The notes under the pieces are model-generated. The model was not told where the DNA came from and did not search any database. It worked only from the letters and a program-made list of their open reading frames with translations. The position numbers and the translations under genes are program-made. A DNA stretch of 64,000 nt from Bifidobacterium mongoliense DSM 21395 (lineage in GTDB: Bacteria > Actinomycetota > Actinomycetes > Actinomycetales > Bifidobacteriaceae), in contig NZ_JGZE01000004.1 of NCBI RefSeq assembly GCF_000741285.1, forward strand, positions 1 to 64,000, in the 5' to 3' direction. Each line of letters begins with the position of its first letter. Positions within the stretch are counted from its first letter, which is position 1. Positions 3,248 to 51,146 of this stretch are shown here, piece after piece.

Positions 3248-3426
3248 TACAATCCCTTTCTTCGGGAGGGGGTCCGTAATGGTTCATAATGGTTGGTTTC
3301 CAGGCGATGATAGCGCTTGGTGGTCACTCAACGATTCAAAGTCATATATGCGCGCGTCCACTCTCCGGTCCCCGAACCACCACCTTCCGGTCCGACGGTT
3401 GGTTGGTCGGCCCGATAATTCAAGAT

Positions 3427-3544: not shown

Positions 3545-3554
3545 TACACGTTGG

Positions 3555-3592
3555 ATGGATCCCGGCGGGCTTGGATGCCCGTCGGGATCCAT
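3555..3592 (+). terminator. Inverted repeat ending the rRNA operon
   Basis: A 16-base stem ATGGATCCCGGCGGGC pairs with GCCCGTCGGGATCCAT (one G-T wobble) around a six-base loop, 10 bases after the 5S gene. It lacks a long T run but its position and strength fit the rRNA operon terminator. Confidence 0.7.
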
Positions 3593-3904
3593 TCGTATAT
3601 CCGGGGGTATGCCGCATGGCATCGCCATCCGCACGCGGCGCACGGACCGTTGCACGGCGGGCCTGCCATGAACACACCACAAACCACCACACCACCCATA
3701 AAACGTCGGATTCAATGGGGAATACGTATGTGGTTCCGTCCCACAACACCGTTATTATCCCCGTTCCCCAGGGTGCCTAGGCGAACGCCGGCGACGAACA
3801 CCGCGTGGATATACCCGGTCAGTGGCTAAGCTGGTGCCTGCAACCATACTGCAATCATGCCGCGCGGACGGCCACGAGCCGTATACCGCGTCAGGCGTGG
3901 CCAA
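3593..3904. other. Intergenic region after the rRNA operon
   Basis: About 310 bases between the rRNA terminator and the aldo/keto reductase ribosome-binding site. I see no coding potential with a ribosome-binding site and no tRNA. It must hold the promoter of the next gene, but no convincing -35/-10 pair stands out. Confidence 0.5.
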
Positions 3905-3916
3905 TAAGGAGGATCC

Positions 3917-35366: not shown

Positions 35367-36095
35367 ATGGCCATGGATGACCCCGACGGCGATGGCCGCC
35401 TGAACGAGCGGCAGCGCGATGCCATCGACGTGCTCGCCTCGCACAACGCCTACGCCGCACAGTCGAAATGGAAGACCTTGCGAGAACTGCCGCGCAAGGA
35501 ACGGTGGCCGTTCTTCGTCCAGCATTTCCTGCTCGCGACATCCGCCATACTCGTGGCGCTCATCGTCGTGATCTCCTTGGCCGTCAGCTTCCTGACCAAG
35601 CCTCCCACCCCGCTGCTCGCGGTCCAGGGCATCGGTATGAGCCGCTATGCCTCGTCGCTCGATCGGCTGCGCGACGGCTTCCTGCGGGACCAGGGCATCG
35701 AGGACCACCGTCTCGTCCAGGTCGATGGCACGCTGTCCATCGGCGGCGACGGGTACGCCGACGATTCCGCCAAGGTCATGACCATGGTCACCGCCGGGCA
35801 GATCAACATGATGGCCGCGGGGCGGACCATGTTCGCCACCCTCGACCATCGTGGGTACATCTCGAAGCCGGCCGATGTGCTCACCGCCGCGCAACTGCGG
35901 GCCGTCGCCGGGGCCTTGGTCGACGCCCGGGGGCATGCCGTGGCCGATCCCGCGCATGCCGCCGGCCTTGATCTGTCGAAATCGGCGGTCTGGCGTTCGG
36001 CGGGGCTGCCCTCCGACGCGATCCTGGGATTCAGCAATGTACAGTCGGGCAAGGTGTACCCGCAGCGGTTCGTCGCCTATCTGCGCTTCTCGTAG
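35367..36095 (+). CDS. Single-pass membrane protein of unknown function
   Basis: A 242-residue protein. A charged cytoplasmic N-terminus of about 50 residues is followed by one transmembrane helix (about 52-74, HFLLATSAILVALIVVISLA) and an extracytoplasmic domain of about 165 residues without cysteines. I do not recognise the domain. AAGGAG lies six bases before the ATG. It sits between the ABC exporter and a YesL-like membrane protein, on the same strand, and may belong with either. Confidence 0.7.
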   Translation: MAMDDPDGDGRLNERQRDAIDVLASHNAYAAQSKWKTLRELPRKERWPFFVQHFLLATSAILVALIVVISLAVSFLTKPPTPLLAVQGIGMSRYASSLDRLRDGFLRDQGIEDHRLVQVDGTLSIGGDGYADDSAKVMTMVTAGQINMMAAGRTMFATLDHRGYISKPADVLTAAQLRAVAGALVDARGHAVADPAHAAGLDLSKSAVWRSAGLPSDAILGFSNVQSGKVYPQRFVAYLRFS

Positions 36096-36215
36096 AGCGG
36101 CATGGGTCGGCGGAGGACCTGATCGGAGTAGGATGGGCCACCGGTCGCATGGTCGCGTGACGTCGGGTCGCCGGCCCTGCGTGGCCCGATGGGCCCAACC
36201 AACGGAAGGTGTGTC

Positions 36216-36899
36216 ATGAAGCGGTTCGCCATGGGCTATGAGTATTTCGCCCGCATCATCATGATGATTCTGATCGTCCATATCGCCGTCATCGTGCATA
36301 CACTGCTCGGCCTGGTCGTGTGCGGGTTCTTCCCCTCCCTTGCCGCCAGCAACACCACGTACCGCACCTGGCTGCTGGAGGTCGAGGACCGGTCGTGGAC
36401 CGTCAAGCACACGTGGACGGTGTTCCACAGGGCATGGAAGCAGGAGCTGGGACCGGCCAACGCCTTCGGCTGGCCGCAGTTCGCCGTCTGGGCGTTGCTC
36501 ATCTGGGAATACTGGCTCACCATGACCAACAACATGGGCACCTTCGGCATCGTGGTCTCCGGTGTCCTGCTCGTACTCAACCTGTTGTACGGCCTGTTCG
36601 TCTTCATGAGCTGGGCCGTGCGTTCGAACTTCGACGAGGGGTTCGTCTGGGTGCTGCGCACCTCGCTGACCATGGTCATCGCCCGCCCCCTGTGCTCGCT
36701 CATGGTGTTCGTCCTCTTCCTCATCACCGTCTGGGCCTATTACACCTGGCCGGGGTTGATGGCCGCCTTCGGTGTCTCCGTGCCGGTGTTCGCCACGATG
36801 ATGGCCGTGTACTCCTGGGGCAGGCTGCCCGGCATGGACGTGCACGAGATCGAGCCGACGGAACGCGATCAGCGCCGCCACGACGAGGGCCGGGCCTGA
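36216..36899 (+). CDS. YesL-like (DUF624) membrane protein
   Basis: A 227-residue protein with about five hydrophobic segments. The opening MKRFAMGYEYFARIIMMILIVHIAV followed by TLLGLVVCGFFPSLAASNTTYR fits the YesL/DUF624 family of unknown function. It is the second such protein in the window, but this one has no sugar genes beside it. GGAAGGTG precedes the ATG at 36216. Confidence 0.65.
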   Translation: MKRFAMGYEYFARIIMMILIVHIAVIVHTLLGLVVCGFFPSLAASNTTYRTWLLEVEDRSWTVKHTWTVFHRAWKQELGPANAFGWPQFAVWALLIWEYWLTMTNNMGTFGIVVSGVLLVLNLLYGLFVFMSWAVRSNFDEGFVWVLRTSLTMVIARPLCSLMVFVLFLITVWAYYTWPGLMAAFGVSVPVFATMMAVYSWGRLPGMDVHEIEPTERDQRRHDEGRA

Positions 36900-36933
36900 C
36901 CCCTTTCATCGGGGCTGCCTACACTGGGGGCCT

Positions 36934-37890
36934 ATGAGCAGACATCATCGCAACCGCAGTTGGGCACCCGCACCGCAACCCCTGCCACGGGACGCATGGG
37001 TCATCGACGACCATACGCATGTGGCCTCCGTGGTGCCCTTCGCCCGAGCCATGAACCATGAGGCGCAGGAGAAGGGCCAACCCGCCGTTCCCGTCTATGA
37101 CGAGGACCAGTTGCTGGCGCAGGCCGCCGCGGTGGGCGTCGCCGGCATCATCGACGTGGGATGCGAATTGCCGCATCTCGAGACCGCCGTGCGTATGGCG
37201 CTGGACCACCCGGGTGTGGTACATGCGGCGCTCGCCATCCACCCGAACGAGGCGGTCCTGCACGGGCATCGCGGCGTTCCCGGGCCCGATGGCCTGCCGT
37301 TGCATTATCAGCCCTGGCATGACACCAGTTTCGAGGACGCGCTCGCCGAGGTCCATCGTCTGGCGTTGGCCCACCCCGAGCAGGTCGTCGCCATCGGAGA
37401 GACGGGCATGGATCTGTTCCGCACAGGGCAGGGGGCCAAGGAAATCCAGCGCGAGGCGTTCCGGGCGCATATCGCGCTGGCCAAGGAGCTCGGCCTGCCC
37501 ATGCAGATCCATGACCGCGACGCCCACCGGGAGGTCATCGACACGCTCCTAGCCGGCGGCAGTCCCGAGCGCACGGTGTTCCACAGCTTCTCCGGTGACG
37601 CCGAGATGGCCGGTATCGCACGCGATCAGGGCTGGTATCTGAGCTTTTCCGGCATCGTGAGCTACAAGGGCAATGACGACATACGCGAGGCGGCGCGCAT
37701 CGTGGGGCCCGAGCACGTCATGGTCGAGACCGACGCCCCGTATCTGACGCCGATGCCATACCGCGGCCGCACGAACGCCCCCTACATGATTCCCTATACG
37801 CTTGAGGCGCTCGCGCAGGCCATGGGGATGAGCGTGCCCGACGTCGCGCGGGCGACGCGGGCGGTCACCCGAACGGTCTATGGCGTATGA
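36934..37890 (+). CDS. tatD: TatD-family metal-dependent hydrolase (DNase)
   Basis: A 318-residue TIM-barrel metallohydrolase. IDDHTHV is the first metal site, AIGETGMDLFR contains the bridging Glu, MQIHDRDAH and VFHSFSGD bring metal His residues, and VETDAPYLTP the catalytic Asp. TatD enzymes are 3'-5' exonucleases acting in DNA repair or turnover. There is no ribosome-binding site; TACACT (36920-36925) ends eight bases before the ATG, so the gene is probably leaderless. In many bacteria tatD follows metG directly; here six kilobases separate them. Confidence 0.9.
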   Translation: MSRHHRNRSWAPAPQPLPRDAWVIDDHTHVASVVPFARAMNHEAQEKGQPAVPVYDEDQLLAQAAAVGVAGIIDVGCELPHLETAVRMALDHPGVVHAALAIHPNEAVLHGHRGVPGPDGLPLHYQPWHDTSFEDALAEVHRLALAHPEQVVAIGETGMDLFRTGQGAKEIQREAFRAHIALAKELGLPMQIHDRDAHREVIDTLLAGGSPERTVFHSFSGDAEMAGIARDQGWYLSFSGIVSYKGNDDIREAARIVGPEHVMVETDAPYLTPMPYRGRTNAPYMIPYTLEALAQAMGMSVPDVARATRAVTRTVYGV

Positions 37891-38052
37891 CGAGAGATAG
37901 TGAAGGGCGGCGCATGTGAAGAAGACGGCCTGGAAGTTGGTATAAGCGCCATGGACAGGTTAAGATTTGCGCTTGGTCTGTCATCGGATGTGATATGTGG
38001 ATGGTGGCGGCGTACGAGAGGCGTGGCGATGCCACGTAATGGAGGATGATCA

Positions 38053-40434
38053 ATGGTGCAGAAGCGTAAGCGTCCGGCGGCTGGCCGGAGCAGATCGCGT
38101 CGGACCGCCGATTCGGCCGCTACCGACGATATCGACGAGACGCTGTTGCGCGCCGATACCTTCACGAACGCCCCCAAGGTCTCGCGGCGTACCCTGACGA
38201 AGGAGGAACGCGAGGAGCTCACCAAGCAGGAGCAGGCCCGGCGCCAGGAGGATGAGTGGCTCTCCAAGGTCGCGGACAAGGGGCCCATCGGCCGCTGGTG
38301 GATCGGGCTGCAGCGCAGTCAGAACAAGATCGGCTTCGGTATGGCGATCGTCGCGCTTGGCGTCGTCTACGGTGACATCGGCACATCGCCGCTCTACACC
38401 GCGCAGACCTTCCTGTCCGGTCAGGGCGGCTTGGCCAACACCAACCGTGAGGCCGTGCTGGGCATGCTCTCCCTCGTGTTCTGGTCGATCACGCTGATCA
38501 CCACCGTGAAATACGTGCTCATCGCCATGCGCATCGACAACAACGGCGAAGGCGGCATCTTCGCCCTGTACTCCCTGATTCGCCGGCATGGTGCCTGGTT
38601 GGCCATACCGGCCATGGTCGGCGGCGCCGCCTTCCTGGCCGATTCCGTGCTCACCCCGGCCGTTTCGATCTCCTCGGCGGTCGAAGGTCTCAAGACCATA
38701 CCCCTGTTCCAACCGGTGTTCACCGAGAATCCCAATCTTTCGCTCATCATCACCGTCCTCATCATCGTCATCCTCTTCTCCGTGCAGTCACGAGGCACCG
38801 AGAGCATCGGCAAGGTCTTCGGATCCGTTGTGCTCGTGTGGTTCAGCTTCCTTGCCATCGTGGGCATCGTGAGCCTGAGCAACGATTGGACCGTCTTCGA
38901 AGCCCTCAACCCCGTGTACGGCGTGCGGTTCCTCTTCAGCCCGCACAACCTCGCGGGCATCGCGCTCATGGGCACGGTGTTCCTGTCGACCACCGGCGCC
39001 GAGGCCCTGTACTCCGACATGGGGCATGTGGGGCGTGGCAACATCTACGCGACATGGCCCTTCATCAAGGTCGCGCTGATCTTCAACTACTTCGGGCAGG
39101 GCGCCTGGATGCTGCGCAACCAGGACAATCCGGCCTATGCCAAGGCCGATGGCCTCAACCCCTTCTTCGAGATGATGGGGCCGAACGTGCGGTATGTGGC
39201 CGTCGCGCTGTCGGTGGCCGCCGGCGTCATCGCCTCGCAGGCCCTCATCACCGGGGCCTTCACCATGGTCTCCGAAGCGACCGGTCTCAACTGGATGCCC
39301 CATCTGCAGGTGCGGTATCCGGCGCGTACCCGCGGCCAGCTCTACATCCCGGTCGTCAACTGGGTGCTGTGCGTCGCCACGTTGACGGTGCTGGCGCTGT
39401 TCCGCGATTCGGAGCATATCTCCGCCGCGTACGGCCTCGCCCTGACCATCACCATGATCACGACGACCGTGCTGCTGGCCGTTCACATGTGGTACCACCG
39501 CAAACGTGCGTTCTCCATCGTGTTCACGCTCCTGTTCCTCACCATCCAGGCGATGTTCTTCATCGCCTCCATGGCGAAGTTCATGCACGGCGGCTGGTTC
39601 ACGATGCTGCTGACCCTCATGATCCTGTTCATCATGATCACGTGGGACGACGGCACCAAGATCGAGCGTTCGCAGCGACGCCATATGAAGCCTTCGGACT
39701 TCCTGCCCGCGGTCGACAAACTGCACAGTGATTTCCGCATCCCGTACTACGCGGACAACATCATCTATCTGACCTCCGATACGGAGATGCGTCGTCTCGA
39801 TACCGACATCTTCTTCTCCATCTTCGCCGACCACCCCAAGCGCGCACGGGCTTGGTGGGCGGTCTCCGTGCAGACCACGGACGAGCCGTTCACCCGCGCC
39901 TACGCGGTGGAGGACTTCGGCACGGACCACATCTTCCGCGTGCGTATACGGCTGGGATTCAAGGTGTCGCAGTCCATCCCGGCCTACATCCACCAGATCA
40001 TGCACGACCTGTCGCATACGGGCGAACTGCCCCAGCAGAAGTCGACCTACCCCAAGGTCGACGCGGATCCGGACATCGGCACCATCCGTTACGTGCTGCT
40101 GCACAAGGCCCTCATGCCCGAGTCCAACATCACGACCCGCGAGGCCCTGTCGCTGAAGATGAAGTACGCCATCCGGCATCTTGCCGGTTCGCCGATCAAG
40201 TGGTTCGGTCTTGCGCCCTACAACCCGCAGGTCGAGGTCCAGCCGTTGTTCGTCACCACGCGTCGGCCGCCGAGACTGCATCGCGAGGCGTTGCGTGCCC
40301 GTGAAACCACCCGCAAGGAGAGCGTGAAGCAATCCGAGACGGCGTCTGTGAAGACGGAGGCGCATGCCGTTGCACCGTCGGGCAAGCATCCGAACGAGGA
40401 GCCGTTGCAGCAGCAGTCCAACGTGACGGATTAG
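38053..40434 (+). CDS. kup: Low-affinity potassium transporter Kup
   Basis: A 793-residue potassium/proton symporter of the KUP/HAK/KT family with 12 predicted membrane helices. ALGVVYGDIGTSPLYT is the family signature in helix 1, and NNGEGGIFALYSLIRR follows in the next helix. The protein has a hydrophilic N-terminal extension of about 85 residues and a long cytoplasmic C-terminus with a basic, low-complexity end. GGAGGATGATCA precedes the ATG. No ydaO-type (c-di-AMP) riboswitch structure is evident in the 160 bases upstream. Confidence 0.93.
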   Translation: MVQKRKRPAAGRSRSRRTADSAATDDIDETLLRADTFTNAPKVSRRTLTKEEREELTKQEQARRQEDEWLSKVADKGPIGRWWIGLQRSQNKIGFGMAIVALGVVYGDIGTSPLYTAQTFLSGQGGLANTNREAVLGMLSLVFWSITLITTVKYVLIAMRIDNNGEGGIFALYSLIRRHGAWLAIPAMVGGAAFLADSVLTPAVSISSAVEGLKTIPLFQPVFTENPNLSLIITVLIIVILFSVQSRGTESIGKVFGSVVLVWFSFLAIVGIVSLSNDWTVFEALNPVYGVRFLFSPHNLAGIALMGTVFLSTTGAEALYSDMGHVGRGNIYATWPFIKVALIFNYFGQGAWMLRNQDNPAYAKADGLNPFFEMMGPNVRYVAVALSVAAGVIASQALITGAFTMVSEATGLNWMPHLQVRYPARTRGQLYIPVVNWVLCVATLTVLALFRDSEHISAAYGLALTITMITTTVLLAVHMWYHRKRAFSIVFTLLFLTIQAMFFIASMAKFMHGGWFTMLLTLMILFIMITWDDGTKIERSQRRHMKPSDFLPAVDKLHSDFRIPYYADNIIYLTSDTEMRRLDTDIFFSIFADHPKRARAWWAVSVQTTDEPFTRAYAVEDFGTDHIFRVRIRLGFKVSQSIPAYIHQIMHDLSHTGELPQQKSTYPKVDADPDIGTIRYVLLHKALMPESNITTREALSLKMKYAIRHLAGSPIKWFGLAPYNPQVEVQPLFVTTRRPPRLHREALRARETTRKESVKQSETASVKTEAHAVAPSGKHPNEEPLQQQSNVTD

Positions 40435-40499
40435 GCCGCGGGGAGGTGGCGCTTCGGGCGTCATCAGGTCGTTGATCGTCTACGTTAGAGTGTTGGGTT

Positions 40500-41348
40500 A
40501 TGTGCAGATTACTCGGGTATGCGGCGGACGGCACCGACATGAGTTTGGTGGACATGCTGGGCGATGCGGCGGTCGAGGATTTCCGCGGGCTCAGTGAGAT
40601 TTACCATGACGGATGGGGATGTGCATTGCCGGCCGATGACGAGCCCGCCGGCGACGATCCACGCGCCGTCGGCACCGGCGCCGACCACGCCGGCGGACGC
40701 GTGTATCGCAACACCGTCGAGGCCCGGCATGACCCCATCTTCACCCAATTGTCGCGGCAGGCGTGCCGCGGGGCGTTGTGGCACTTACGGTTGGCCAGTT
40801 CCCATCTGCCGGTCATCGTCGAGAACCAGCAGCCGTTCCATGCGCACGGTCTGAGCTTCATCCATAACGGCGATATCTCCGACGATCGTGGCCGCAACAT
40901 CGTGGAACATGCCGATGACGTGATCGGACGGAAGGACTTCCTGGCCACCGGCGGCCGCAGTGATTCCGTGTTGTTCTTCGGCGTGATGCTTGCATACGTG
41001 CGTTCCGGTGCGCCCTTGGATTCCGCGGTCTCTCAGGCCATCGGCAGGTTGCGGGCCATCTGCCCCAAATCGAGCTACAACTGCATGATTCAAAGCCCGC
41101 AGAGCACCGTGGTGGTGCAGGCCTCCGGTCGTGTCGACGTCCCTCCCCGCATCTGCGAGATCTATGAGGACTATGGGCGCGAGGGACAGGCCCACGACTA
41201 CCGCACGGTCCGCTATCGGGAGGTGCGCGATGGCCGTGGCGCGCTCCATGCGGTGGTCGCCGCGAGCTGGGCAACGACCATATGCTCGTCATGTCGAATC
41301 GTGACGCGACGTACGAAGTACGGCCCCTGTAGCGGCGGATTCCGGTGA
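40500..41348 (+). CDS. Class II glutamine amidotransferase (probable frameshift at the 3' end)
   Basis: An Ntn-type glutamine amidotransferase domain protein. After the initiator Met comes the nucleophile Cys2 (MCRLLGYAADG); RGALWHLRLASS, FIHNGDISD and GRSDSVLFFGVML are further family blocks. The last 25 residues in this frame are atypical. From about 41258 to the TAG at 41330-41332 another frame reads ELGNDHMLVMSNRDATYEVR, the normal family C-terminus. Adding one base near 41250-41262 would give a 277-residue protein. TAGAGT ends eight bases before the ATG, so it is probably leaderless. The acceptor substrate is unknown. Confidence 0.8.
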   Translation: MCRLLGYAADGTDMSLVDMLGDAAVEDFRGLSEIYHDGWGCALPADDEPAGDDPRAVGTGADHAGGRVYRNTVEARHDPIFTQLSRQACRGALWHLRLASSHLPVIVENQQPFHAHGLSFIHNGDISDDRGRNIVEHADDVIGRKDFLATGGRSDSVLFFGVMLAYVRSGAPLDSAVSQAIGRLRAICPKSSYNCMIQSPQSTVVVQASGRVDVPPRICEIYEDYGREGQAHDYRTVRYREVRDGRGALHAVVAASWATTICSSCRIVTRRTKYGPCSGGFR

Positions 41349-41476
41349 GTGCGCCGTGATGGTGGTCACGTTGTGTGCCGCGGTTGTTCGTCGCGGGACG
41401 GCTCCGTATGGGGGGGCATCGGATGCGGTTGGAAGGCTGGCCGACGGCGCGCGGGAGCACGCCTAGACTGGGGCGT

Positions 41477-42248
41477 ATGACCGGTTTCATACCCACACTC
41501 GCCCAGATCGACGAGATGCATCATGCCATCAGCCCCTCGGATGCCGCTTATGACCTCATTCACACCCATTGCGTGATCGTCGCGACCATCACGCGTCAGC
41601 TGGTTCAACGTCAGAACGCGTTGTTCGTGCGGCGGTGCACATTGCCGCAGGACGTCCCCGAGCTTGCCAGCCGCAGGCCAGACGCCGGTGCCGAACCGTC
41701 GCCGCTGATGCTCGACGCGCCCGTGGTGCCCCCCCACCGACGGGGTGCGCGACGGCACCGTTCCTCCCCGGCTGCTCGATGCGCGCATGGCGGTGATCGG
41801 CGCGATGGTGCACGACATCGGCACGTACCGGGTGCTGGCCCATGACGGCTCCGATGGTGAGCCGCTGCGATTCGACGGGCCACGCTACATACAGCATGGT
41901 CTGTTGGGGTATCGGTACCTGTTGGAACAGGGCGTGGATGAAGCCGTCGCGGCCTTCGCCAGGAACCACACCGGGGTGGGGCTCACGCGTGAAGATGTCG
42001 AACGACAGGGGCTGGCATTGCCGCCCGACGACTACGCCCCTACGACGCTGGAGCAGGAGGTGGTGATGGTGGCGGATAAATACCACAGCAAATCGGTCCC
42101 GCCCAAGTTCCTCACTGTCGAGGCCTACACGAAGAAGGCCGCTCGGTTCGGTGAGGGCAACAAACGGCGCTGGCTCGACGTCGTGGCGAAGTACGGCGTC
42201 CCCGACATCCCCGCGCTGGCGAAGCGCTTCGATATGCGGCTCGTCTGA
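41477..42248 (+). pseudogene. HD-domain hydrolase gene interrupted by a frameshift in a C7 tract
   Basis: Two overlapping frames make up one HD-domain phosphohydrolase-like gene. The first frame starts at ATG 41477 (MTGFIPTLAQIDEMHH) and has normal sequence up to a run of seven C at 41729-41735. The second continues with DGTVPPRLLDARMAVIGAM, the HD motif VHDIGTYRVL, then NHTGVGL and DKYHSKSVPPKFLT, to the stop at 42246-42248. Removing one C restores a single 256-residue frame. TAGACT (41464-41469) lies seven bases before the ATG, the spacing of a leaderless gene. A sequencing error, a mutation or phase variation could explain the shift. Confidence 0.75.
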
Positions 42249-42263
42249 GCGGCCGGTGTCGGC

Positions 42264-43373
42264 CTAGAGTTCGAAACGCTCGTCGGCCGCGTTGAGGTCG
42301 CGTTCCTCGTCGGTGACCATGATGACGCAACGTGGGGTCGTCGTGTCGTGGGCGAGGGTCGTCAGTAGCGTCAGTATGGCCGTGCTCCCGGCGTCGTCGA
42401 GGCTGACGGTCGGGGCGTCGACGATCACTGCGGTCGCCTCACAGGCGATGGCCCGCGCGATGGCGAGACGGCGCTGGTCGAGCATGTCGAGGTCGGCGGC
42501 GGGGGTGCCCGTGGCCGCGGCGCTGAAGCCCACGGTGGCGAGCAGATCGTGCGCCAGGTCGCGCATCGGCCGCAGGAAGGTGCGGTCGGCCGCTTGCATG
42601 GTGTACACGAGGTTGCTGGTCGCATCGAGATCATCGCGCACCGCGAACCGTTGCGGCACCAGGCCGATGCGGTGTCCGCGGATCGCCACGGAGGGCATGG
42701 TGGCCAGGTCGGCGCTTTTGAGCATGACTTGGCCAGTATCGGGCCTGCGCAGGCCGCCGAGCACGCTGAGCAGCGCGTGCCGTTGGTCGGCGTCATGCGT
42801 GGTCACGGCATACAGTCTGCCGCTGTAGAAGCCCAGTTGGACGTCATCGAGGAGGGCTCTGCCGGACTTGCGGTCGTGCAGGGTCGCATGGTTGAGCGCG
42901 AAGGTCGGATAGGATTTGAGCAAAATCTCGTCCGCCACCTCATCCGTGACCGCTAGGTGGTCGTCCTCCTCCGTATCGCCGGCGGCGGGGGTCGCATCCG
43001 GTTCGCTCGCCGTCCTGGAATCGTGTTCGTTGGCCGGAGTGGGGATGGATGAGGTGTCGGATGATGTGGCACCGGCATCCGCGGTCGGTTCCGTGGTGGG
43101 GCTGCCGTCCGGGTCCTCTGCTTGATCGCCGATGGGGGTGTCGTCGGGTTTGCCGTCGGCGACGGCGGCCGGTGTGATCGCATCCTCGTCGTCGTAGACG
43201 ATGTCGAATGGAATCTCGGTGGGGGACGGGGCCTGGCCACTCGGGGTGTTGCCTGTGTCGGCGTCCGCTCCGGTGGCGTCCGTGTGCTCGTCGAGCGTGG
43301 ACGTCCCGTCGTTGTCCGGTGCGTCTTCGTCGGGCATGTTGTGGTCCGATGTGTTGTGCAATGTGTCGCTCAT
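42264..43373 (-). CDS. Degenerate ABC ATPase-like protein with disordered acidic N-terminus
   Basis: A 369-residue protein. Residues 1-150 are acidic, rich in Asp/Thr/Ala/Pro and probably disordered. Residues 153-369 align along their length with MacB/LolD-type ATPases, but the motifs are lost: the Walker A region reads VTTHDADQRHALLSVLGGL (about 190-208), with no GxxGxGKS; Gln241 of the Q-loop remains; the signature is LDMLDQRRLAIARA (about 295-308) in place of LSGGQ; Walker B ends VIVDAPT (Ala320 for the catalytic Glu); the H-loop His is Asp355. ATP hydrolysis is therefore unlikely. Its ATG overlaps the stop of the FtsX-like permease gene, so the two are co-translated and should interact. 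Confidence 0.8.
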   Translation of the reverse strand: MSDTLHNTSDHNMPDEDAPDNDGTSTLDEHTDATGADADTGNTPSGQAPSPTEIPFDIVYDDEDAITPAAVADGKPDDTPIGDQAEDPDGSPTTEPTADAGATSSDTSSIPTPANEHDSRTASEPDATPAAGDTEEDDHLAVTDEVADEILLKSYPTFALNHATLHDRKSGRALLDDVQLGFYSGRLYAVTTHDADQRHALLSVLGGLRRPDTGQVMLKSADLATMPSVAIRGHRIGLVPQRFAVRDDLDATSNLVYTMQAADRTFLRPMRDLAHDLLATVGFSAAATGTPAADLDMLDQRRLAIARAIACEATAVIVDAPTVSLDDAGSTAILTLLTTLAHDTTTPRCVIMVTDEERDLNAADERFEL

Positions 43374-44692
43374 CGTGTGGCCTCCTCGCGGGTGGTGAAC
43401 AGCGTGGTCGTCTGGAACAGGAACACGCGGACCAGCGCGATAACCGCCAGCACGACGGCCGCCAGCGCACTCCAGCCGATGGTGTGCCATATGATACCGG
43501 CGTCGGGGGCGGTGGCATGGCCGGATGCGAGGGCCGAGCCCAATGGTCCGGACGCGAAGGCGCCCGCAAGTATGCCGATCGCGGCGCCCGCCACCGTGGG
43601 CATGAGCACCTCGAGCATGAACTGCCAGCCGAGACGGCCGCGGGAGACGCCGATGACGAGTCCCGTGCCGATCTCACCGCCCCTGTTCCTCAGATTGAGG
43701 ATGACGAGGGCGAGCAACAACAGACCGCCGACGATCCAGGCGATCAGGAGACCCAGCCTCATGCAGTGCGCCAGGTCGGCGAGCGGTGCGATGGAGGCGC
43801 GGTACCGCGTGACGGTGCTCGAGGAGACCTCGTGCGTGGCGCGCAGGCCTGCCCCCTTGACCGCTTTGGTGAACTGCCGGTAGTCGCCCATGCTGCTGAG
43901 TTTGAAGACGATGTTGAGGTCGGGTATGGCCCATCCTTTGGCGTTGTTCGCGTCGAGGCCGTTGGAGTTGAAGGCGTAATACCCGGTGTAGATCGTGTTG
44001 TCGCGGTTGTCCTTGGCCAGTTTCGCCGGGGCGCTCGCGTCGGGCGTGGTGTATGCATAGATCCCGCGCACCGTGAGCGTGAAGGTCTTCGTCGCATCGC
44101 CGGGACGTCCCACCGTGACCTTGTCGCCGACCTTGAGGTGGTTCTTCGTGGCGAGCGCCTGAGAGATGAGGGCCTCGTGACGGTTCGCCTCGGCCTGGCC
44201 GGTATAGTCGATCGCCTTGCCGGATACGATGCGTATCTGACCGGCCTCGTTGTCCTGCAGGGCGTCGGCGGTGTACAGGCCGGTCATGGTCAGCTCGCCG
44301 CCCGTCTTCGAGGCAGGCTGGTCGGCGCTGCCGGCGATGGCGGTGAGTGAAGACGACTGCCGGACGGGTGCAGATTCGAGGAAGGTGTAGGAGAACTGCA
44401 GGTTGGTCGACTGGGCCGCGGTGGCGTACTTGGTGTAATCGTCCCAGGACAGATAATGCTTCGTCCACGAGGCGTCCGCACCGTTGCGCTTGGCCAGGGT
44501 GGCTGCGGTCGGGCGTATGGCGGCCGCGGGTTTGAGCGCCTGCTCACCGGGGCCCGCCGCCGTGGTTTCGGCGGCCTGTACCGACCATCCGAACAGGGTG
44601 GCGAACGCCACCACCAACGCGATCAGGACGGTCGTGATACTGCGCCAAGGATGGCGTTCCAGTGACATCCATGCGTTCTTGAGAACGAACAT
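43370..44692 (-). CDS. FtsX-like (MacB-type) ABC permease
   Basis: A 440-residue membrane protein. One transmembrane helix near the N-terminus (about 18-42), an extracytoplasmic domain of about 260 residues, then three helices in the last 130 residues: the FtsX/MacB/LolCE topology of mechanotransmission ABC systems. GGAGAAG lies before the ATG at 44692. The C-terminal end overlaps the start of the ATPase-like partner. A role in export, envelope signalling or regulation of a cell-wall hydrolase is possible; nothing in sequence decides. Confidence 0.8.
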   Translation of the reverse strand: MFVLKNAWMSLERHPWRSITTVLIALVVAFATLFGWSVQAAETTAAGPGEQALKPAAAIRPTAATLAKRNGADASWTKHYLSWDDYTKYATAAQSTNLQFSYTFLESAPVRQSSSLTAIAGSADQPASKTGGELTMTGLYTADALQDNEAGQIRIVSGKAIDYTGQAEANRHEALISQALATKNHLKVGDKVTVGRPGDATKTFTLTVRGIYAYTTPDASAPAKLAKDNRDNTIYTGYYAFNSNGLDANNAKGWAIPDLNIVFKLSSMGDYRQFTKAVKGAGLRATHEVSSSTVTRYRASIAPLADLAHCMRLGLLIAWIVGGLLLLALVILNLRNRGGEIGTGLVIGVSRGRLGWQFMLEVLMPTVAGAAIGILAGAFASGPLGSALASGHATAPDAGIIWHTIGWSALAAVVLAVIALVRVFLFQTTTLFTTREEATR

Positions 44693-44925
44693 GCGGTCTT
44701 CTCCACTTTCTTCTGTGGTCGTCGGCATCCGTGCAGGCCGCGGCGTACAACGTATTTCCATGTAGCTTACCGTAAGATGCGTCTCGTGCGCGGTGGCCCA
44801 TCTTCACCAACAGTCACTTTTGTCGTGCTGGGTGCAAGTTTTCTTGCGCAGTACTGTTATACGCCTACAAGCTTCCTGAAAGGTGGCTGAATGGTGGGAC
44901 GGGCGGTGTGTGGATCCCTGGTCGC

Positions 44926-45765
44926 TCAGGACCGTGGGACGTTGGCTGCCGCCTCGCCGCGGCCGACGGCCCGCTCGTCGCGCAATGGCAGCACACGGAT
45001 GCGTGCGGTCTCGGCAGCGTCGAGCGGGATGCGGTTGGTGGGGTTGGGGGGGGGGTCTGAGGGATCGGTGATGGTGCAGGGGGCTGTGTCCGGGGAACCG
45101 TCACCGGTGTTCAGGGCGACGATATGCATGATCGGGCCTTCGTCGCCGGATCTATCGGCATGCCCGCCACTCGTCGCGGCGTCGTCCTCTTGGGGCCTGC
45201 TGACGGCGATGACGGCGTGCAGCCCCGCGCCATGGTGTTCGAGGCGGTGCAATAGCGTGGGTTCCACGTCGTTGACCCGTACGATGCGCGCCGGGACGCC
45301 GTCCGGCAGGTCGACGAGGGTGATGGCGGCCTGCGTGGGCAGACTGCCATCCGCTCGGGGTATCGGATCACCGTGGGGATCGGCGTCGGGGTGGCCCAGC
45401 AGCTCGTCGATGCGATCGATCATGAGGTCCGAGGCCGCGTGCTCCAGGGCGTCGGCTTCGGGATGGACCTCGTCCCAGCGGTAGCCGAGTGTCGTGACGA
45501 GAAACATCTCGAGCAATCGATGCTTGCGCGCCATACGCACGGCGTATCGCTCGCCGCGTTCCGTCAGTGCTATGGCGCCGTACGGGGTGTGCCTCGCATA
45601 TCCGCCGGCGACCAGTCGAGACACCGCTCCGGAGACCGTCGATGCCCGCACATGCGCGCGGTACGCCAGTGCCGAGGGTTGCACGGCGCCGTGCCCCCAC
45701 TCCCGCAGGTCCCAGATCATCTTCAGATAGTCCTGGGCCTGTGGGGAAAGATCCTGCAGCGTCAT
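44926..45765 (-). CDS. DtxR/MntR-family metal-dependent regulator
   Basis: A 279-residue regulator. The N-terminal winged helix (SPQAQDYLKMIWDLREWG, then ALAYRAHVRASTVSGAVSRL) is followed by the metal-binding and dimerisation domain with RKHRLLEMFLVTTLGYRWDE and EADALEHAASDLMIDR, where Met, His and Glu ligands of DtxR/MntR reside. A C-terminal FeoA/SH3-like region is interrupted by a low-complexity stretch. TAGACT lies six bases before the ATG, suggesting a leaderless mRNA. Iron or manganese as co-repressor cannot be decided. It is upstream of, and on the same strand as, the FtsX-like operon. Confidence 0.87.
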   Translation of the reverse strand: MTLQDLSPQAQDYLKMIWDLREWGHGAVQPSALAYRAHVRASTVSGAVSRLVAGGYARHTPYGAIALTERGERYAVRMARKHRLLEMFLVTTLGYRWDEVHPEADALEHAASDLMIDRIDELLGHPDADPHGDPIPRADGSLPTQAAITLVDLPDGVPARIVRVNDVEPTLLHRLEHHGAGLHAVIAVSRPQEDDAATSGGHADRSGDEGPIMHIVALNTGDGSPDTAPCTITDPSDPPPNPTNRIPLDAAETARIRVLPLRDERAVGRGEAAANVPRS

Positions 45766-45871
45766 GCGCCCAGTCTACGGTATGCGCTCAGTTGCGATGC
45801 GTCTGATTCCATGACCTTGGGCGGTGTTGGGGCCGAGGCCTGCACGGCGTTCGGATGACGTGATTTCGACG

Positions 45872-45883
45872 CGTTGCGCAACG
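45872..45883. promoter_or_regulatory. Palindrome in the divergent dtxR-diflavin reductase region
   Basis: CGTTGCGCAACG is a perfect 12-base palindrome, flanked by GACG and TC, in the 269 bases between the divergent genes. It may be a regulator site; I cannot name the regulator. It does not match the iron- or manganese-box consensus I know for DtxR/IdeR or MntR. Confidence 0.35.
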
Positions 45884-46034
45884 TCATGAACCCGCGCCGT
45901 ATGCAACGCAATAATACCTAGATATTGTGTTAATGCTGATGGCCATCTACCATATCTTGTGGTTCGTGTGCCCTGTGGTGTGGAGCTGAGCCTCAAGTCA
46001 TTGAGTCATAGACCTTAGATGAGGAGTGTTCATC

Positions 46035-47765
46035 ATGTTGCTGTCGCGTCGTATCACCGTGCTGTCCGCCTCGGAGACGGGGAACTCCCGGGAGGTGGCC
46101 GAGTGGCTGCGTGACGCCCTCGAACCGCTGTGTGACACGGTGCGGTTGGTGGACGCCTTCGACTATCCGGCGTCGTCGCTTCCCGATGAGGACCTGCTGT
46201 TTATGGTCACGTCGACGCAAGGGGAGGGCGAGCCCCCCATGGAAGCCGAGGAGTTGTATGACGACGTCATGGGTGAGGCGGCGCCGCGCATGGATGGTGT
46301 GGAATTCGCCGTCCTGGGATTGGGCGACAGCGCGTACGGGGTGAATTTCAACCGCATGGCCCGGTGGTTCGATGCGAGGTACGCCGAATTGGGTGCGCAC
46401 AGGCTCATGCCTCACCGGGAATGCGATCTCGACTACGAGGCCACGGCCGAGCGGTGGATCGGGGATGTCGTCGCCGCCCTCGGGGCGAAGCCGGGGGAGT
46501 CCTCGCAAGTGTCGGGGAATGTAGTGTCGCCGGGTGCCTCGGAGGACGCCTATACGTTGGTCGGGCGCACCTTGCTGAGTTCGCCCGACTGCGCCAAGCA
46601 GGTGTACCGGATACGTCTCGCGGCTGCTCACGCGATCGAGTATGAGCCCGGCGACATGATGGCGGTGCGCTACCGCAATGACGATGAGACGGTGCGACGG
46701 GTCCTCGACGCCGCGTTTCGGGGAGCCAATGACGCCGGTTCAGACGTCGTCACCCGTAATGGAACTCGTGATGCTACCTGTGAAGCCGCCACCCGCGACG
46801 CTGCCCGCAATGCGGATCCTGCGCTGTTCGACAAGCTGGCTGAGGCACTGCGAGACCGTGACATCACCAACACCTCGCCGTCCCTGATCGCCCGCTATGC
46901 GTCGATCTCGGGCAACGAAACCGTACGCGCCGCGGTGGGGGACCCGCTGTTCCTGGAACGGTATGCGTGCGCCAACCCTCCGGAGGCCCTGTTCCATGAT
47001 TTTCCGGGGACGGCGACGATGGCCGACGCCCTTGACATCTTCACCGGTTCCAGCCGGCGCCTGTACTCCATATCCAACGCACAGCCGACTCCGGTGGCCG
47101 GTGACAACTGCGGCGGCGATCAGGGTGTGACCGTGGCCGAGGTCTGGCCTGATGTCGGGGCTGAGGGCGCGCACCTTGTCGATCTGACGGTGACCCGGGT
47201 CACGCATGAATTGGACGGGCGTACCCTGGTCGGCGCCTGCACCGGGTATCTCACCGGCCTGCCCATCGGCTCCCGGATCAGCGCCGACATCGTATCCAAC
47301 CCCCGATTCCACTTCCCGACGGATCGGATGGCCGATGTCATCATGATCGCCCTCGGATCGGCGATCGCGCCATATCGGGCCTTCCTGCAGCAACGCGCCT
47401 ACGATCACGCATCGGGGCGTGCCTGGCTCATGGTCGGCAACCGCCATCCGAGGCAGGATGCCCTGTATCGCGAGGAACTGCGGCGGTGCCGCGATACGGG
47501 CCTGCTGACCCGTCTCGATGTCGCCTGGTCGCGCGACGAGCAGGACCCGCAGCATGTGCAGGATCTCATCACCGCTGCGGCATCGGATCTATGGCGGTGG
47601 ATCGAATCCGGGGCGAGCGTCTTCATCTGCGGCCACGGCGGGACGGCCGTCGCGTCCATCATGGCCGCCGTGTCGGCGGTCGTCGAGGACCAGGGCCATA
47701 TGTCCTCGGACGAGGCGCACCGGTATATGGCCGATCTCGAACGCAGCGGCCGGCTGCGGCACTGA
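46035..47765 (+). CDS. Diflavin reductase (flavodoxin plus FAD/NADPH reductase; CysJ-like)
   Basis: A 576-residue flavoprotein. The N-terminal flavodoxin domain binds FMN through SASETGNS (11-18) and has the STQGEGEPP and GLGDSAYGVNF loops. The reductase part has RRLYSISNAQ (FAD-binding RxYS), a pyrophosphate region around LGSAIAPYRAFLQQR and the NADPH-ribose-binding VAWSRDEQDPQHVQDL. It resembles the flavoprotein subunit of sulfite reductase or a cytochrome P450 reductase. No hemoprotein partner gene is adjacent, so the electron acceptor is unknown. GAGGAG is eight bases before ATG 46035; the in-frame GTG at 46026 is too close to it. Confidence 0.85.
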   Translation: MLLSRRITVLSASETGNSREVAEWLRDALEPLCDTVRLVDAFDYPASSLPDEDLLFMVTSTQGEGEPPMEAEELYDDVMGEAAPRMDGVEFAVLGLGDSAYGVNFNRMARWFDARYAELGAHRLMPHRECDLDYEATAERWIGDVVAALGAKPGESSQVSGNVVSPGASEDAYTLVGRTLLSSPDCAKQVYRIRLAAAHAIEYEPGDMMAVRYRNDDETVRRVLDAAFRGANDAGSDVVTRNGTRDATCEAATRDAARNADPALFDKLAEALRDRDITNTSPSLIARYASISGNETVRAAVGDPLFLERYACANPPEALFHDFPGTATMADALDIFTGSSRRLYSISNAQPTPVAGDNCGGDQGVTVAEVWPDVGAEGAHLVDLTVTRVTHELDGRTLVGACTGYLTGLPIGSRISADIVSNPRFHFPTDRMADVIMIALGSAIAPYRAFLQQRAYDHASGRAWLMVGNRHPRQDALYREELRRCRDTGLLTRLDVAWSRDEQDPQHVQDLITAAASDLWRWIESGASVFICGHGGTAVASIMAAVSAVVEDQGHMSSDEAHRYMADLERSGRLRH

Positions 47766-47789
47766 CGTGGGCGTCGAGCGGGGCCGCGC

Positions 47790-48491
47790 TTACTCCTCGT
47801 TCGGCGGCAGCGTCTCCACGTCCTTCATGCCGGAGATGGCGATGAGGGATGACAGCAGCTCGGTGGTCACCGGTCCCCGCACGCGCACTCCCACAGCCAC
47901 CATGGTCCGGGCGTCAACGTCGACGTTACGGGATGAGAATACCTGTGCCGTGAGGCCTGCCCGGGCCATCTCCACCAGCGCCGCACGCAACGAACCCTTG
48001 CCGTTCTCGTACACCAGGCGAATCGTCTCAAATCGATGTCGGCGCGTCACACGGTAGGTGAGGGGCGCGATCACCAGTACGACCAGGAAGTACATCACCG
48101 TGACCACGAGGCTCACCGCCAGCATGTTCGCCGCCGCGGCCACGCCGATCGCTGATGCGACCCAGATGCCCGCCGCGGTGGTCACTCCGCGCACGTTATC
48201 GCGCTGGATGAAGATGACCCCGGCGCCGATGAAGCCGATCCCCGACACCACCTGGGCGGCGACCCGCGATGCGTCCCAGCTCACGCCGAGTCCGGCAACC
48301 GCCCGATAGCCGTAGAACGACACCACGGTGAACAGCCAGCTGCCCAGACCGACCAACACGTTGGTGCGGATGCCGGCATCCTTGTCGTGGAATTCTCGTT
48401 CGAACCCGATGAGGCCGCAGAGCAGCACGGTCGTCGTCAGCGACAGCAATTGCTGCCATGTGGGAATGCCGAAAGTGGGAATGCCGCTCAT
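47790..48491 (-). CDS. MgtC/SapB-family membrane protein
   Basis: A 233-residue protein. The first 140 residues have four to five helices with the MgtC hallmarks GLIGFEREFHDKDAGIRTNVLVGLG, QVVSGIGFIGAGVIF and GVTTAAGIWVASAIGVA. The C-terminal 85 residues form an ACT-like soluble domain. MgtC proteins modulate magnesium homeostasis and F-type ATPase activity in pathogens; the role here is unknown. It converges on the diflavin reductase gene. Confidence 0.88.
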   Translation of the reverse strand: MSGIPTFGIPTWQQLLSLTTTVLLCGLIGFEREFHDKDAGIRTNVLVGLGSWLFTVVSFYGYRAVAGLGVSWDASRVAAQVVSGIGFIGAGVIFIQRDNVRGVTTAAGIWVASAIGVAAAANMLAVSLVVTVMYFLVVLVIAPLTYRVTRRHRFETIRLVYENGKGSLRAALVEMARAGLTAQVFSSRNVDVDARTMVAVGVRVRGPVTTELLSSLIAISGMKDVETLPPNEE

Positions 48492-48835
48492 GTGGTGCTC
48501 CTCTCGGCCGTGTGCCGGCGTCGTGTCTCGGTGGTCGGTGATGCGGTGGTGTCGGTGACGATATGGTCGTCGGCAATACCACTATCCACGATACGCTTGC
48601 GCAGGTGGGTCGGGGCGCGGCCTCGCCCCCGTTGTCCCACTCCACGTGCCGCGCCGCGTTTTCCGGTATTATGGATACCAACGTTGATCGGGCACCGAAG
48701 CCCGTTCGACCCCGTATCGCGTTGATGGCCACGTCGTGTGTCACGACGCTGAACCGGCGGGAGGAGTGGCGATGAAGCCCCCACGAGTGATCGTGCAGCA
48801 TCAAATTCATCACCATATTCCAGCAACGACCGAAG
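48492..48835. other. Intergenic region with a possible displaced gene start
   Basis: The region between mgtC and the acyltransferase-like gene. An ATG at 48772 has a strong ribosome-binding site, GGGAGGAG, but opens a frame unlike any protein I know. It could be the original start of the acyltransferase gene, separated from it by a frameshift between about 48791 and 48835. Confidence 0.4.
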
Positions 48836-50005
48836 ATGCTGGCCCAGATTCTCCAGCCGGCGCCATTGGACAGCTGGATCAGCCCGCCGCTGTGGTGGGA
48901 GAACTTCGTGCCCGCATGCGTGCCGATGTTCCTCTTCCTGAGCGGGTACTTCGGCCTCGGGCGGGCCATGCGCGACAATGATTGGAGCAAATCCATCAGC
49001 AATTTCTGGAAGAACATCTGGTATTGGATCCGCTGGGTGCTGCTGTTCTCGATACTGGTGGTGCTCGCACCGGGGCTGTGGCCCACCGAGCGGCCGTTCG
49101 CCGGCAAATCGCTGGGAGACAGTCTGCTCCATCTGCTGCGTAGCCTGATCACGCCGCAGAACGGTACCATCACCGACAATATCGGTCCCGCCTTCTTCTT
49201 CGTCGGGTTCGCATGGGTCGCGTTCTTCGCCGCACTGTTCCGTCCGTTCTTCGCCACCGCAAGCATGAAGGCCATCCGTATCATGACCGCGGTGATCGTC
49301 GGATATGCCACGCTCGTCCCGTTCATGAATTTCTTCAGCACCGACGTGCTGGCGGCCGACCCGAAATCCATGCTGGGCGCCTTCCTCGCCGTGTCGCCCT
49401 TGACGACGCTGCACTTCACCTGGTTCAACTTCTGGCTCGCCATGTATGTGCTCGGCGGATGGTTCGCGCGCGACGTGCAGGTGCAGCGGGTTCTGAGGGA
49501 TATGGGCTGGTGGCTGGTCATCGTCATCGCGTTGGCCGGGTTCGCGCTCGAGGCCGTGCTCGGGCATGAGTACGGCCTCGTCTATTGGGCCACGACCGGG
49601 CATATGCCGGTGGTGATGTATGAGACGGGCGGATACCTGCCGATGATGATCCCTTACGTCATCATCTCGTTCAAACTCAACGACGTCATCAAGCCCGAGT
49701 CGCGACTGGGTCGATTCGTCCTGCGGGTCTCCCCGACGACTCTCGGTACCATCCTCGTCGGCTGGTGCTTCGGCACGCTGCTCGTCAGGGGTGTATTCGC
49801 CGGGGCGTTCACCTCGTTGTGGGAGACCCTGTACCCGATCGGCGGTTCGCCCATACCGTTCTCGCTGGTCTGGTTCGTCATCTGCACGCTGTGGTTCGCT
49901 CTCATCACGGTGGTGGTCCTGCTGATGGCGAAGATCCCCTTCGTCCGCTCGCTGGTCACGTTCACCGATATGAGACTGCGCCCGAAGCGCAAGGTTTCGG
50001 CCTGA
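48836..50005 (+). CDS. Acyltransferase 3-like membrane protein, apparently short at the N-terminus
   Basis: A 389-residue polytopic membrane protein with about nine hydrophobic helices and a basic C-terminus. NFVPACVPMFLFLSGYFGLG matches the VPLFFxxSGYxL block of acyltransferase family 3 (O-acetyltransferases of envelope polysaccharides). In that family the block is preceded by a first helix with the catalytic His, about 60 residues upstream; here only about 28 residues precede it and they are not hydrophobic. The ATG at 48836 lacks a ribosome-binding site. The gene is probably 5'-truncated or frameshifted and may be inactive. Confidence 0.6.
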   Translation: MLAQILQPAPLDSWISPPLWWENFVPACVPMFLFLSGYFGLGRAMRDNDWSKSISNFWKNIWYWIRWVLLFSILVVLAPGLWPTERPFAGKSLGDSLLHLLRSLITPQNGTITDNIGPAFFFVGFAWVAFFAALFRPFFATASMKAIRIMTAVIVGYATLVPFMNFFSTDVLAADPKSMLGAFLAVSPLTTLHFTWFNFWLAMYVLGGWFARDVQVQRVLRDMGWWLVIVIALAGFALEAVLGHEYGLVYWATTGHMPVVMYETGGYLPMMIPYVIISFKLNDVIKPESRLGRFVLRVSPTTLGTILVGWCFGTLLVRGVFAGAFTSLWETLYPIGGSPIPFSLVWFVICTLWFALITVVVLLMAKIPFVRSLVTFTDMRLRPKRKVSA

Positions 50006-50068
50006 CCCCGAACGCTCGGGACGGTGATGTCGACCCGGCGTCACCGTAGCCGTGTACTGAATAGTCCC

Positions 50069-50110
50069 ATGGTGCGGGTCGCGCGATTCGTATCGCGCGA
50101 CCCGCACCAT
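50069..50110. terminator. Perfect 19-base-pair hairpin
   Basis: ATGGTGCGGGTCGCGCGAT and ATCGCGCGACCCGCACCAT form a 19-bp stem around the loop TCGT. It lies 64 bases after the acyltransferase-like gene and 213 bases beyond the 3' end of the minus-strand tRNA-Lys gene. It has no T run. It is probably a bidirectional terminator. Confidence 0.55.
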
Positions 50111-50322
50111 GTCTGACCCCTTGGCGATGTGCGCTGCTGTCATACGGTCAAACGAGATGCCCGGATCATGGGTGATCGCGGATTGTTAGCGCCATTCGAG
50201 ACCAGCCGGCGAACGGATCCGGTGCATGGGTACCTGCAACGAAGCTGTCGGGCATCTGCGGAAATATGTGTATCGAATATTCGGCCGTTCATACGAAAAC
50301 GGCTGAAAATCAAGGGAAATCG

Positions 50323-50395
50323 TGCCCCCCGTCGGACTCGAACCGACAACCCACGACTTAAAAGGACGCTGCTCTAACCATTGAGCCAGAGGGGC
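50323..50395 (-). tRNA. tRNA-Lys (anticodon TTT)
   Basis: A 73-base cloverleaf on the minus strand: acceptor GCCCCTC/GGGGGGC (with one U-G pair), D arm GCTC/GAGC, T arm GTCGG/CCGAC with TTCGAGT, and anticodon loop CTTTTAA. The anticodon stem GCGTC/GTCGT contains one U-U mismatch at 30-40 and a terminal G-U. The CCA end is not encoded. Confidence 0.93.
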
Positions 50396-50600
50396 AACAG
50401 AAGAACATTATACAAGATGGCGAGACGTTGCGCTGCCGCATAGCGCCGCGTTTCCCGGGCGTGATTCCGCGGAATCGAAATACCTGCCACATCCGTTGAC
50501 GGGTGATGTCGAATACGCGAGGACACCAAGCCAAGGTGGGCGGTCAGTGTTGGCGGTCTGTGCAGGCAGTCATTGCGGCATCGGGTGATTGGCGATCCGA

Positions 50601-50870
50601 CTACTTGGCGAGCTGGCCGAGCTCCACGAGTTTGGCCTGCAGATCGTTCGCGGACGGTTCGACCTGGAAGGATCCGTCGCCGAACTGGACGACCGGAATG
50701 TGCTTCTGGCCGCTGATCGAGACGGCCTTGTCGGCCGCGCCGTCCTCCTGCTCGATGTCGTGCCAATGGTACGGGGCACCGAAGCGGTCAAGCGCCGCCT
50801 TCGCGCGTTTGCAGTCGCCGCACCAGTCGGCTCCGTACATTTCGATGGTCGCATCGGTTTCGCTGCTCAT
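50601..50870 (-). CDS. Mycoredoxin/glutaredoxin-like thiol oxidoreductase
   Basis: An 89-residue thioredoxin-fold protein. The active site is WCGDC (Cys17 and Cys20), like mycoredoxin and NrdH-type glutaredoxins of actinobacteria. IPVVQFGDGS supplies the cis-proline. The family reduces mixed disulfides with low-molecular-weight thiols. GGAGG precedes the ATG at 50870. Confidence 0.88.
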   Translation of the reverse strand: MSSETDATIEMYGADWCGDCKRAKAALDRFGAPYHWHDIEQEDGAADKAVSISGQKHIPVVQFGDGSFQVEPSANDLQAKLVELGQLAK

Positions 50871-51146
50871 GCATGCCTCCACATATCGCTGTATCGTTGG
50901 TGGCCGTGGTTCGCGGCCATCCGTATGTCGCAGCCAATCTACAACATCGTCGCAAGGCGCACCACGTTCAGCTCTGAGCACGTGCCCGAACACGAGTTTG
51001 AGCACTTGGCCGTGGGGGTGGATCCGTGGATCACGGTCGGGCGGGAGGCTCGGATGGAAGGGTCGGGCGGAAGTGCCGGGAACGACCGTGAACCGACGTC
51101 GCCCCGTGCGCCGTTTCGTTCGAGCGGGTCGCATACCATGGTGGCC

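Follow-up and report, generated by a model that had tools for sequence, protein, structure and literature searches.

A pseudo-ATPase of ABC fold encoded beside an FtsX/MacB-type permease in Bifidobacterium is probably a conserved, non-hydrolysing subunit

ATP-binding cassette (ABC) systems are defined by their use of ATP, and the nucleotide-binding domains (NBDs) of the HrtBA, MacB, LolCDE, YbbAP and 5XU1 systems are ATPases; there are also ABC transporters in which one of the sites is degenerate. Here, we describe a gene pair located in a 64,000-nt stretch of Bifidobacterium mongoliense DSM 21395 (RefSeq contig NZ_JGZE01000004.1, positions 1 to 64,000; "the window" throughout), in which an FtsX/MacB-type permease is encoded together with a pseudo-ATPase of ABC fold, termed pABC. 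Unlike the five systems named above, pABC is devoid of the Walker A, signature and H-loop motifs and carries a long acidic tail. We consider pABC to be a conserved non-hydrolysing subunit of its permease, with a probability of roughly 0.85.

FtsEX is another close comparison. In the excerpted text of PMC11627006, FtsEX is a signal transmitter driven by the FtsE ATPase, in which a cavity formed by regions of the FtsE NBD takes up the coupling helix of FtsX. In FtsE, the ATPase is active; pABC scores 67.7 bits against the 264.85-bit cut-off of the FtsE model (TIGR02673) and does not qualify as FtsE; nothing in our analysis of the pair points to a peptidoglycan-hydrolase partner as in FtsEX. Beyond ABC systems, pseudoenzymes such as pseudokinases and pseudophosphatases have known functions as scaffolds and in allostery, as stated in the accessible part of PMC10211241, and pABC resembles these in having kept the fold and lost the catalytic motifs. 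The accessible part of the same account gives no ABC ATPase as an example ("Walker" and "ATPase" are absent from its main text, where "ABC" occurs once). Type VII pairs are well known, and what would be new is the pABC family: among the titles and abstract openings listed by literature searches, which covered few subscription papers, none describes it, and none describes a type VII ATPase that is fully degenerate.

Named genomes were scanned with a profile built from 28 pABC domains (the window's and those of 27 relatives); of the 83 relatives identified, 80 were kept as the analysed set: 78 are titled Bifidobacterium, the others being Galliscardovia ingluviei and Bombiscardovia coagulans. All 80 loci were picked through a single peptide pattern, [AT]Mx[AS]S[GN]R[TN]FL, so that conservation at residues 258-267 is inflated there, and eight of them are shorter than 12 kb, so that neighbour counts are lower bounds. 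Counts out of 81 refer to the 80 relatives plus the window, and the shuffle controls ignore kinship among the sequences. In all 80 relatives, the permease gene lies directly upstream of the pABC gene, on the same strand and in the same order, and in every one of them a start reading MFV (MFVLKNAW in 49) aligns with that of the window permease. The original prediction, made from the letters of the window alone, had claimed intact frames and translational coupling through ATGA; both are present (Table 1), and the same start/stop overlap occurs in 73 of the 80 relatives, as ATGA in 66 and GTGA in seven.

Both sequence and predicted fold place pABC among the ABC nucleotide-binding domains at the fold level. 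It matches Pfam ABC_tran (PF00005) with 33.8 bits (cut-off 25), covering only profile positions 26-136; since this curated cut-off accepts pABC as an ABC transporter domain, automatic annotation can be expected to call it a transporter ATPase. The permease exceeds the cut-offs of both FtsX (46.3 bits) and MacB_PCD (30.6 bits) and thus has a type VII (MacB/FtsX-like) permease domain. At the level of named functions, pABC matches 150 NCBIfam ABC families at E ≤1, and none of the best 25 of these comes close to its cut-off. The best by E-value, DevA (TIGR02982), reaches 78.8 of the 295.8 bits demanded, and LolD (TIGR02211) 60.9 of 307.75; against MacB (NF007826), a model of the fused protein with a 966-bit cut-off, pABC scores 48.4 and the permease 11.7 bits.

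AlphaFold2 confidence for pABC, given as block means, is 49-69 over residues 1-150 and 90-98 over residues 161-369. The domain model superposes on MJ0796 with a Z of 26.9 and a root mean square deviation (rmsd) of 1.9 over 211 residues (Foldseek was also used) and on HrtA (7w7b_K) with a Z of 26.7 and an rmsd of 2.0 over 208 residues at 28% identity; the likeness of the pair to the haem exporter HrtBA would be one of fold only. The permease model has a mean predicted local distance difference test score of 91.3 and a predicted template modelling score of 0.81. With its four hydrophobic segments, it can be read as the type VII succession of elbow helix, transmembrane (TM) helix TM1, extracellular domain, TM2, coupling helix, TM3 and TM4, the elbow and coupling assignments being putative. 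It is similar to 5xu1_M, a pneumococcal ABC permease (Z 20.3, rmsd 8.7, 364 residues), where the large rmsd would fit a different angle between the membrane and extracellular parts; the permease chains of LolCDE, HrtBA, MacB and YbbAP share its architecture with Z values of about 11-18.

Judged by its sequence, the window pABC has none of the four elements that mark an active ABC ATPase (Walker A, signature, catalytic Glu and H-loop His), while its D-loop, SLDD, is kept. The Walker A consensus GxxxxGK[ST] is missing from the window pABC and from all 80 relatives; at the aligned position of the Walker A Lys, 43 relatives have Arg and none has Lys, the alignment of this variable P-loop stretch being uncertain where insertions occur. 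Neither the window protein nor any of the 80 has an aligned LSGGQ signature, and the sole LSGG string among the relatives (in L057) sits after the P-loop helix and not at the signature position. The H-loop His occurs in none of the 80. The Walker B Asp is kept in 78, and the position of the catalytic Glu is filled by Glu in 67, Asp in eight, Gly in two, and Ala, Gln and Asn in one each. Three of the elements (Walker A, the signature and the H-loop His) are, therefore, absent throughout the sample, and only some lineages, the window's among them, have also lost the Glu. The residues named in the original prediction (the degenerate Walker A, Gln241, LDMLDQRR, Ala320, Asp355 and SLDD) all proved correctly placed when the numbering was checked. 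Its statement that all four ATPase elements are gone together is right for the window pABC and too strong for the family, in which most members keep the Glu, and its proposal that the losses be looked for in orthologues was followed up: among the 80, no relative combines an intact Walker A with an intact signature.

Substitution rates were estimated as dN/dS (the ratio of non-synonymous to synonymous rates) by the Nei-Gojobori method for 28 non-overlapping pairs. They range from 0.009 to 0.378 (median 0.083) in the ABC domain, from 0.056 to 0.523 (median 0.156) in the permease and from 0.094 to 0.595 (median 0.322; 27 pairs with a defined value) in the tail. These values indicate purifying selection on the ABC domain. 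Where conservation resides was assessed by comparing mean column entropies of 28 pABC rows, gathered without the peptide pattern, with those of 19 intact sister ATPases (see below). The pABC rows are far more variable at Walker A (2.07 versus 0.46 bits), at the signature (1.96 versus 0.18) and at the H-loop (1.61 versus 0.15) than the intact sisters; the two groups lie closer together in the Q-loop and helical subdomain (1.12 versus 0.86), in the helix that follows the signature (0.82 versus 0.52), at Walker B (0.88 versus 0.47) and over the whole ABC domain (1.53 versus 1.08). Conservation is gone from the nucleotide site and kept where the permease is expected to be held.

Among the most conserved blocks of the permease (52 rows; 1.93 bits overall) are residues 1-10 (0.70 bits), residues 351-360 (1.04 bits), which directly follow the coupling-helix candidate, and, on the extracellular side, residues 181-190 (1.02 bits). 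From this pattern of conservation in pABC and permease, together with the cavity in FtsE for the coupling helix of FtsX, we infer that selection acts, among other things, to keep the subunit interface. A mirror-tree comparison of the 30 (of 80) loci with all four genes yielded a partial correlation of 0.45 between NBD and permease (permutation p 0.0005).

The N-terminal tail, predicted beforehand to be acidic and probably disordered, fits that description by its residue counts (Table 1) and its low AlphaFold2 confidence. All 81 tails are net negative (charge -7 to -102, median -34), and their length varies from 58 to 392 residues (median 166). Of these tails, 65 contain the strict motif [FY]x[IV]x[FYI][DE][DE], with 0.06 expected after shuffling; a second one, NAxxVxxTLxL, occurs in 33 (0.0 expected), the window tail not being among them. 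The tail motifs look like putative binding motifs for a partner.

In the genus as defined by GTDB, 98 of 112 genomes have a match at E ≤4.8e-69; these are strong matches by E-value, with motifs inspected in part, and the named and genus-level sets overlap. One genome outside the 98 (G122) harbours a diverged, motif-less copy (L152). The family (189 genomes searched) has pABC in further genera too: the alignment shows no motifs in L150, L153, L155, L156 and L159, all of genus g25, or in L151 (g34). All 28 genomes with E ≤1e-40 in a sample of 396 genomes of the order belong to pABC's own family. One copy, L033 (G006:C22), is apparently frameshifted, next to a permease open reading frame (ORF) of normal length.

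The genome of B. mongoliense also harbours an intact sister pair (C1:29203-31786, L031) with the gene order of the pABC pair. Among the other matches to pABC in that genome, its ATPase ranks first; it differs from pABC in keeping GPSGAGKT, LSGGE, DEPTGNLD and the H-loop, and its own-genome copy has no acidic tail. The sister permease (C1:29203-30534) is larger than the one paired with pABC (open frame of 599 aa) and has a Ser-rich stretch. Apart from the permease paired with pABC, it is the one place in the genome that matches a permease profile, and an intact ATPase gene follows it. Duplication of an intact permease-ATPase pair is the simplest origin and probably the actual one. In a tree of 55 ABC domains, 29 pABC rows form one clade (100/100) on a long stem, the bootstrap not having settled; pABC and the intact sisters together split from nine other ABCs at 94/97, and the closest intact lineage is not resolved. 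In 24 pABC-bearing genomes, which are without a close sister ATPase, the pABC pair does not seem to need it: eight of them give no match at 1e-40, and in the other 16 the best match reaches 38-45% identity, versus 72-74% in the control genomes G012 and G001. These 24 (22 of the genus plus G149 and G160) were chosen for having few strong matches or belonging to another genus.

We favour a scaffold or regulator role for the pair. That it forms an old, nucleotide-independent, type VII ABC-like complex with the pseudo-ATPase as docking or signalling subunit is, in our view, reasonably likely. In such a complex, pABC would neither bind nor hydrolyse ATP in the normal way and would be docked on the coupling and elbow helices of the permease, its disordered acidic tail presenting a short motif to a cytoplasmic partner; the extracellular MacB-like domain of the permease may sense or hold an envelope partner, and the whole would act as a transmembrane scaffold or signal adaptor. 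It would have originated from a duplication of the intact pair found in many bifidobacteria, followed by the loss of ATP use. The odds are about even for the most specific version, a core complex of the Bifidobacteriaceae that works without ATP use, where pABC is an adaptor that clamps the permease and the tail serves a cytoplasmic partner, passing signals or anchoring envelope machinery.

Several observations weigh against this scaffold reading. Relatives mostly keep the Walker B Asp (78/80) and the catalytic Glu (67/80), and the low Walker B entropy (0.88 bits) reflects more conservation than a fully freed site predicts; a structural role is possible. The mirror-tree signal is not specific for a complex, as NBD and Kup correlate at 0.50, versus 0.45 for NBD and permease. 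Twelve of the 112 genus genomes, all of 1.5-1.8 Mb, have no strong pABC match, their weak matches ranging from 1e-34 to 7e-37; in one of them, G009, both loci (L168 and L180) are ordinary intact ABCs by motif. The strict tail motif is missing in 16 of 81 tails, most of which show looser versions by eye (e.g., FKVVIEHED in the B. asteroides group). Lastly, an active ATPase may act in trans on the permease. Such an ATPase would be encoded elsewhere, with pABC as a regulatory or placeholder subunit of a mixed complex; the complete type VII fold and the coupling-helix candidate in the permease model are in its favour, as are the 86 ABC_tran matches in the B. mongoliense genome. We nevertheless judge this alternative unlikely: no ORF with both intact ABC motifs was found in any of 81 stretches (those of the 80 relatives, eight of them below 12 kb, and window positions 36000-51000), and the 24 genomes described above have no close sister ATPase. 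The window itself holds two ABC ORFs (660 and 821 aa) some 8-10 kb from the pair. By the same evidence, the original suggestion that the pair might be a partner for another ATPase is weakened where the intact sister ATPase is meant and is still allowed for unlinked ones. A true heteromeric transporter, composed of pABC, the sister ATPase and their two permeases, is very doubtful: sister ATPase and sister permease are the closest own-genome matches to the pABC pair, and many genomes have matches at the level of both, but the pseudo pair dispenses with a close sister in the 24 chosen genomes, and no composite site would be canonical, the pABC signature being gone.

Cryptic binding of a nucleotide or another phosphate ligand through migrated residues would account for the Arg at the Walker A Lys position in 43 of 80 relatives and for the retained Walker B Asp and Glu; the P-loop segment, however, varies in both length and sequence, signature and H-loop are gone throughout, and the window pABC has not even the Glu, which together make this explanation distinctly improbable. 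Hardly credible is a decaying pseudogene in the window strain, or a sequencing artefact. The apparently broken copy in G006 and the frameshifted look of the window's neighbouring HD-domain gene might suggest it, but the open frame, motif losses alike in 80 of 80 relatives and dN/dS far below 1 led us to reject local decay; substitution is not neutral across species, and the original prediction was right in holding that this is not simple decay. The preferred reading remains that of a non-hydrolysing subunit.

Around the pair, a converging HD-domain gene is found in 68 of the 80 loci, Kup in 44-47 and a glutamine-amidotransferase-like gene in 44 (family match just under the cut-off). The third component that the original prediction proposed to look for was not found: no further co-oriented gene is common to most of the 80 loci. 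Fourteen loci (B. asteroides/indicum, B. xylocopae and Bombiscardovia) have a co-oriented gene upstream resembling the major facilitator superfamily (e.g., in L121 and L123, ~2772-4316; named by reading), and the same group has a co-oriented gene of ~293-313 aa downstream of the pair (e.g., L118, 6758-7639). In the window, the HD-domain gene downstream of the pair (41375-42248, plus strand) is apparently frameshifted, two overlapping ORFs, which lie in different frames, matching one ORF in relatives (e.g., L052). Upstream and co-oriented lies a gene for a DtxR-family regulator (44926-45765, minus strand); a similar protein is present in only four of the 80 loci.

Table 1. Positions in the window of the pABC-permease pair, its motifs and its putative control elements.
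Feature	Position	Strand	Remark
pABC (pseudo-ATPase, acidic tail plus ABC nucleotide-binding-domain fold)	42264..43373	-	369 aa, stop included in coordinates
FtsX/MacB-type permease, type VII fold, four predicted TM helices	43370..44692	-	440 aa
ATGA overlap, permease stop / pABC start	43370..43373	-	
Acidic, probably disordered tail, residues 1-149	42927..43373	-	41 D/E, 2 K/R
Conserved short motif FDIVYDD, residues 56-62	43188..43208	-	FSVVFDD-like
Degenerate Walker A VTTHDADQRHAL, residues 190-201	42771..42806	-	
Q-loop Gln241, kept	42651..42653	-	Gln in 59/80 relatives
Degenerate signature LDMLDQRR, residues 295-302	42468..42491	-	
Walker B segment, residues 316-321: Asp319 kept, Ala320 at catalytic Glu	42411..42428	-	
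H-loop position, Asp355 replacing His	42309..42311	-	
Permease coupling-helix candidate, residues 338-346, then conserved stretch 351-360	43655..43681	-	Named by interpretation
Promoter-like element GTATAACAGTACTGCGCAAGAAAAC	44838..44862	-	Upstream of permease
11-bp direct repeat TTCAG-N6-TTCAG, candidate response-regulator site	44876..44891	-	

The putative promoter region of the pair consists of the direct repeat, followed by a TATAAC element and GCGCAAGAAAAC; a TATAAC-like element with its downstream flank is conserved in 25 of 81 loci. With up to six mismatches, GTATAACAGTACTGCGCAAGAAAAC recurs ahead of the permease gene in 25 of 81 loci, where shuffled sequences give 0.0; with up to three, it has a single site in its own genome. 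Direct repeats with 11-bp spacing are typical of OmpR/PhoB-type response regulators. Of 81 upstream regions, 13 have an exact TTCAG repeat and 33 have one with at most one mismatch, versus 0.0 and 0.7 in Markov-resampled sequences; it is common to distant clades. When one mismatch is allowed, the counts are 0 to 2 for other spacings and 2 for the opposite strand; two mismatches are less specific (51 of 81 versus 9.3 expected; other spacings 7-21). A regulon defined by the TTCAG repeat was not retained: of three exact sites in the genome, the other two, judged by reading, lie inside an ORF or without a fitting gene start just downstream. An operator candidate near 44770, CTTACNGTAAG, was also dropped, TTAC-N(0-6)-GTAA being found in two of 81 upstream regions.

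Elsewhere in the same genome (L182, C26), TTCAT-N6-TTCAT occurs after the end of a response-regulator-like ORF and upstream of a pstS-like gene (below the family cut-off). It is possibly a PHO box, and a PhoP/PHO-box link for the pair is at most suggested; a literature search on such a link returned nothing. In 19 of 80 loci (e.g., L062, L086 and L092), CGGCCAACG is found 40-169 bp before the permease start, with 0.4 expected given how frequent it is in the loci; it is absent from the window's upstream sequence.

Bifidobacteria are major gut symbionts, and here a pseudo-ATPase has been kept by selection across most of the genus and in some related genera, always beside its own permease. The pABC pair is, therefore, a natural test of two things: what roles the NBD fold may have beyond ATP hydrolysis, and whether a type VII complex can serve purely as a scaffold.

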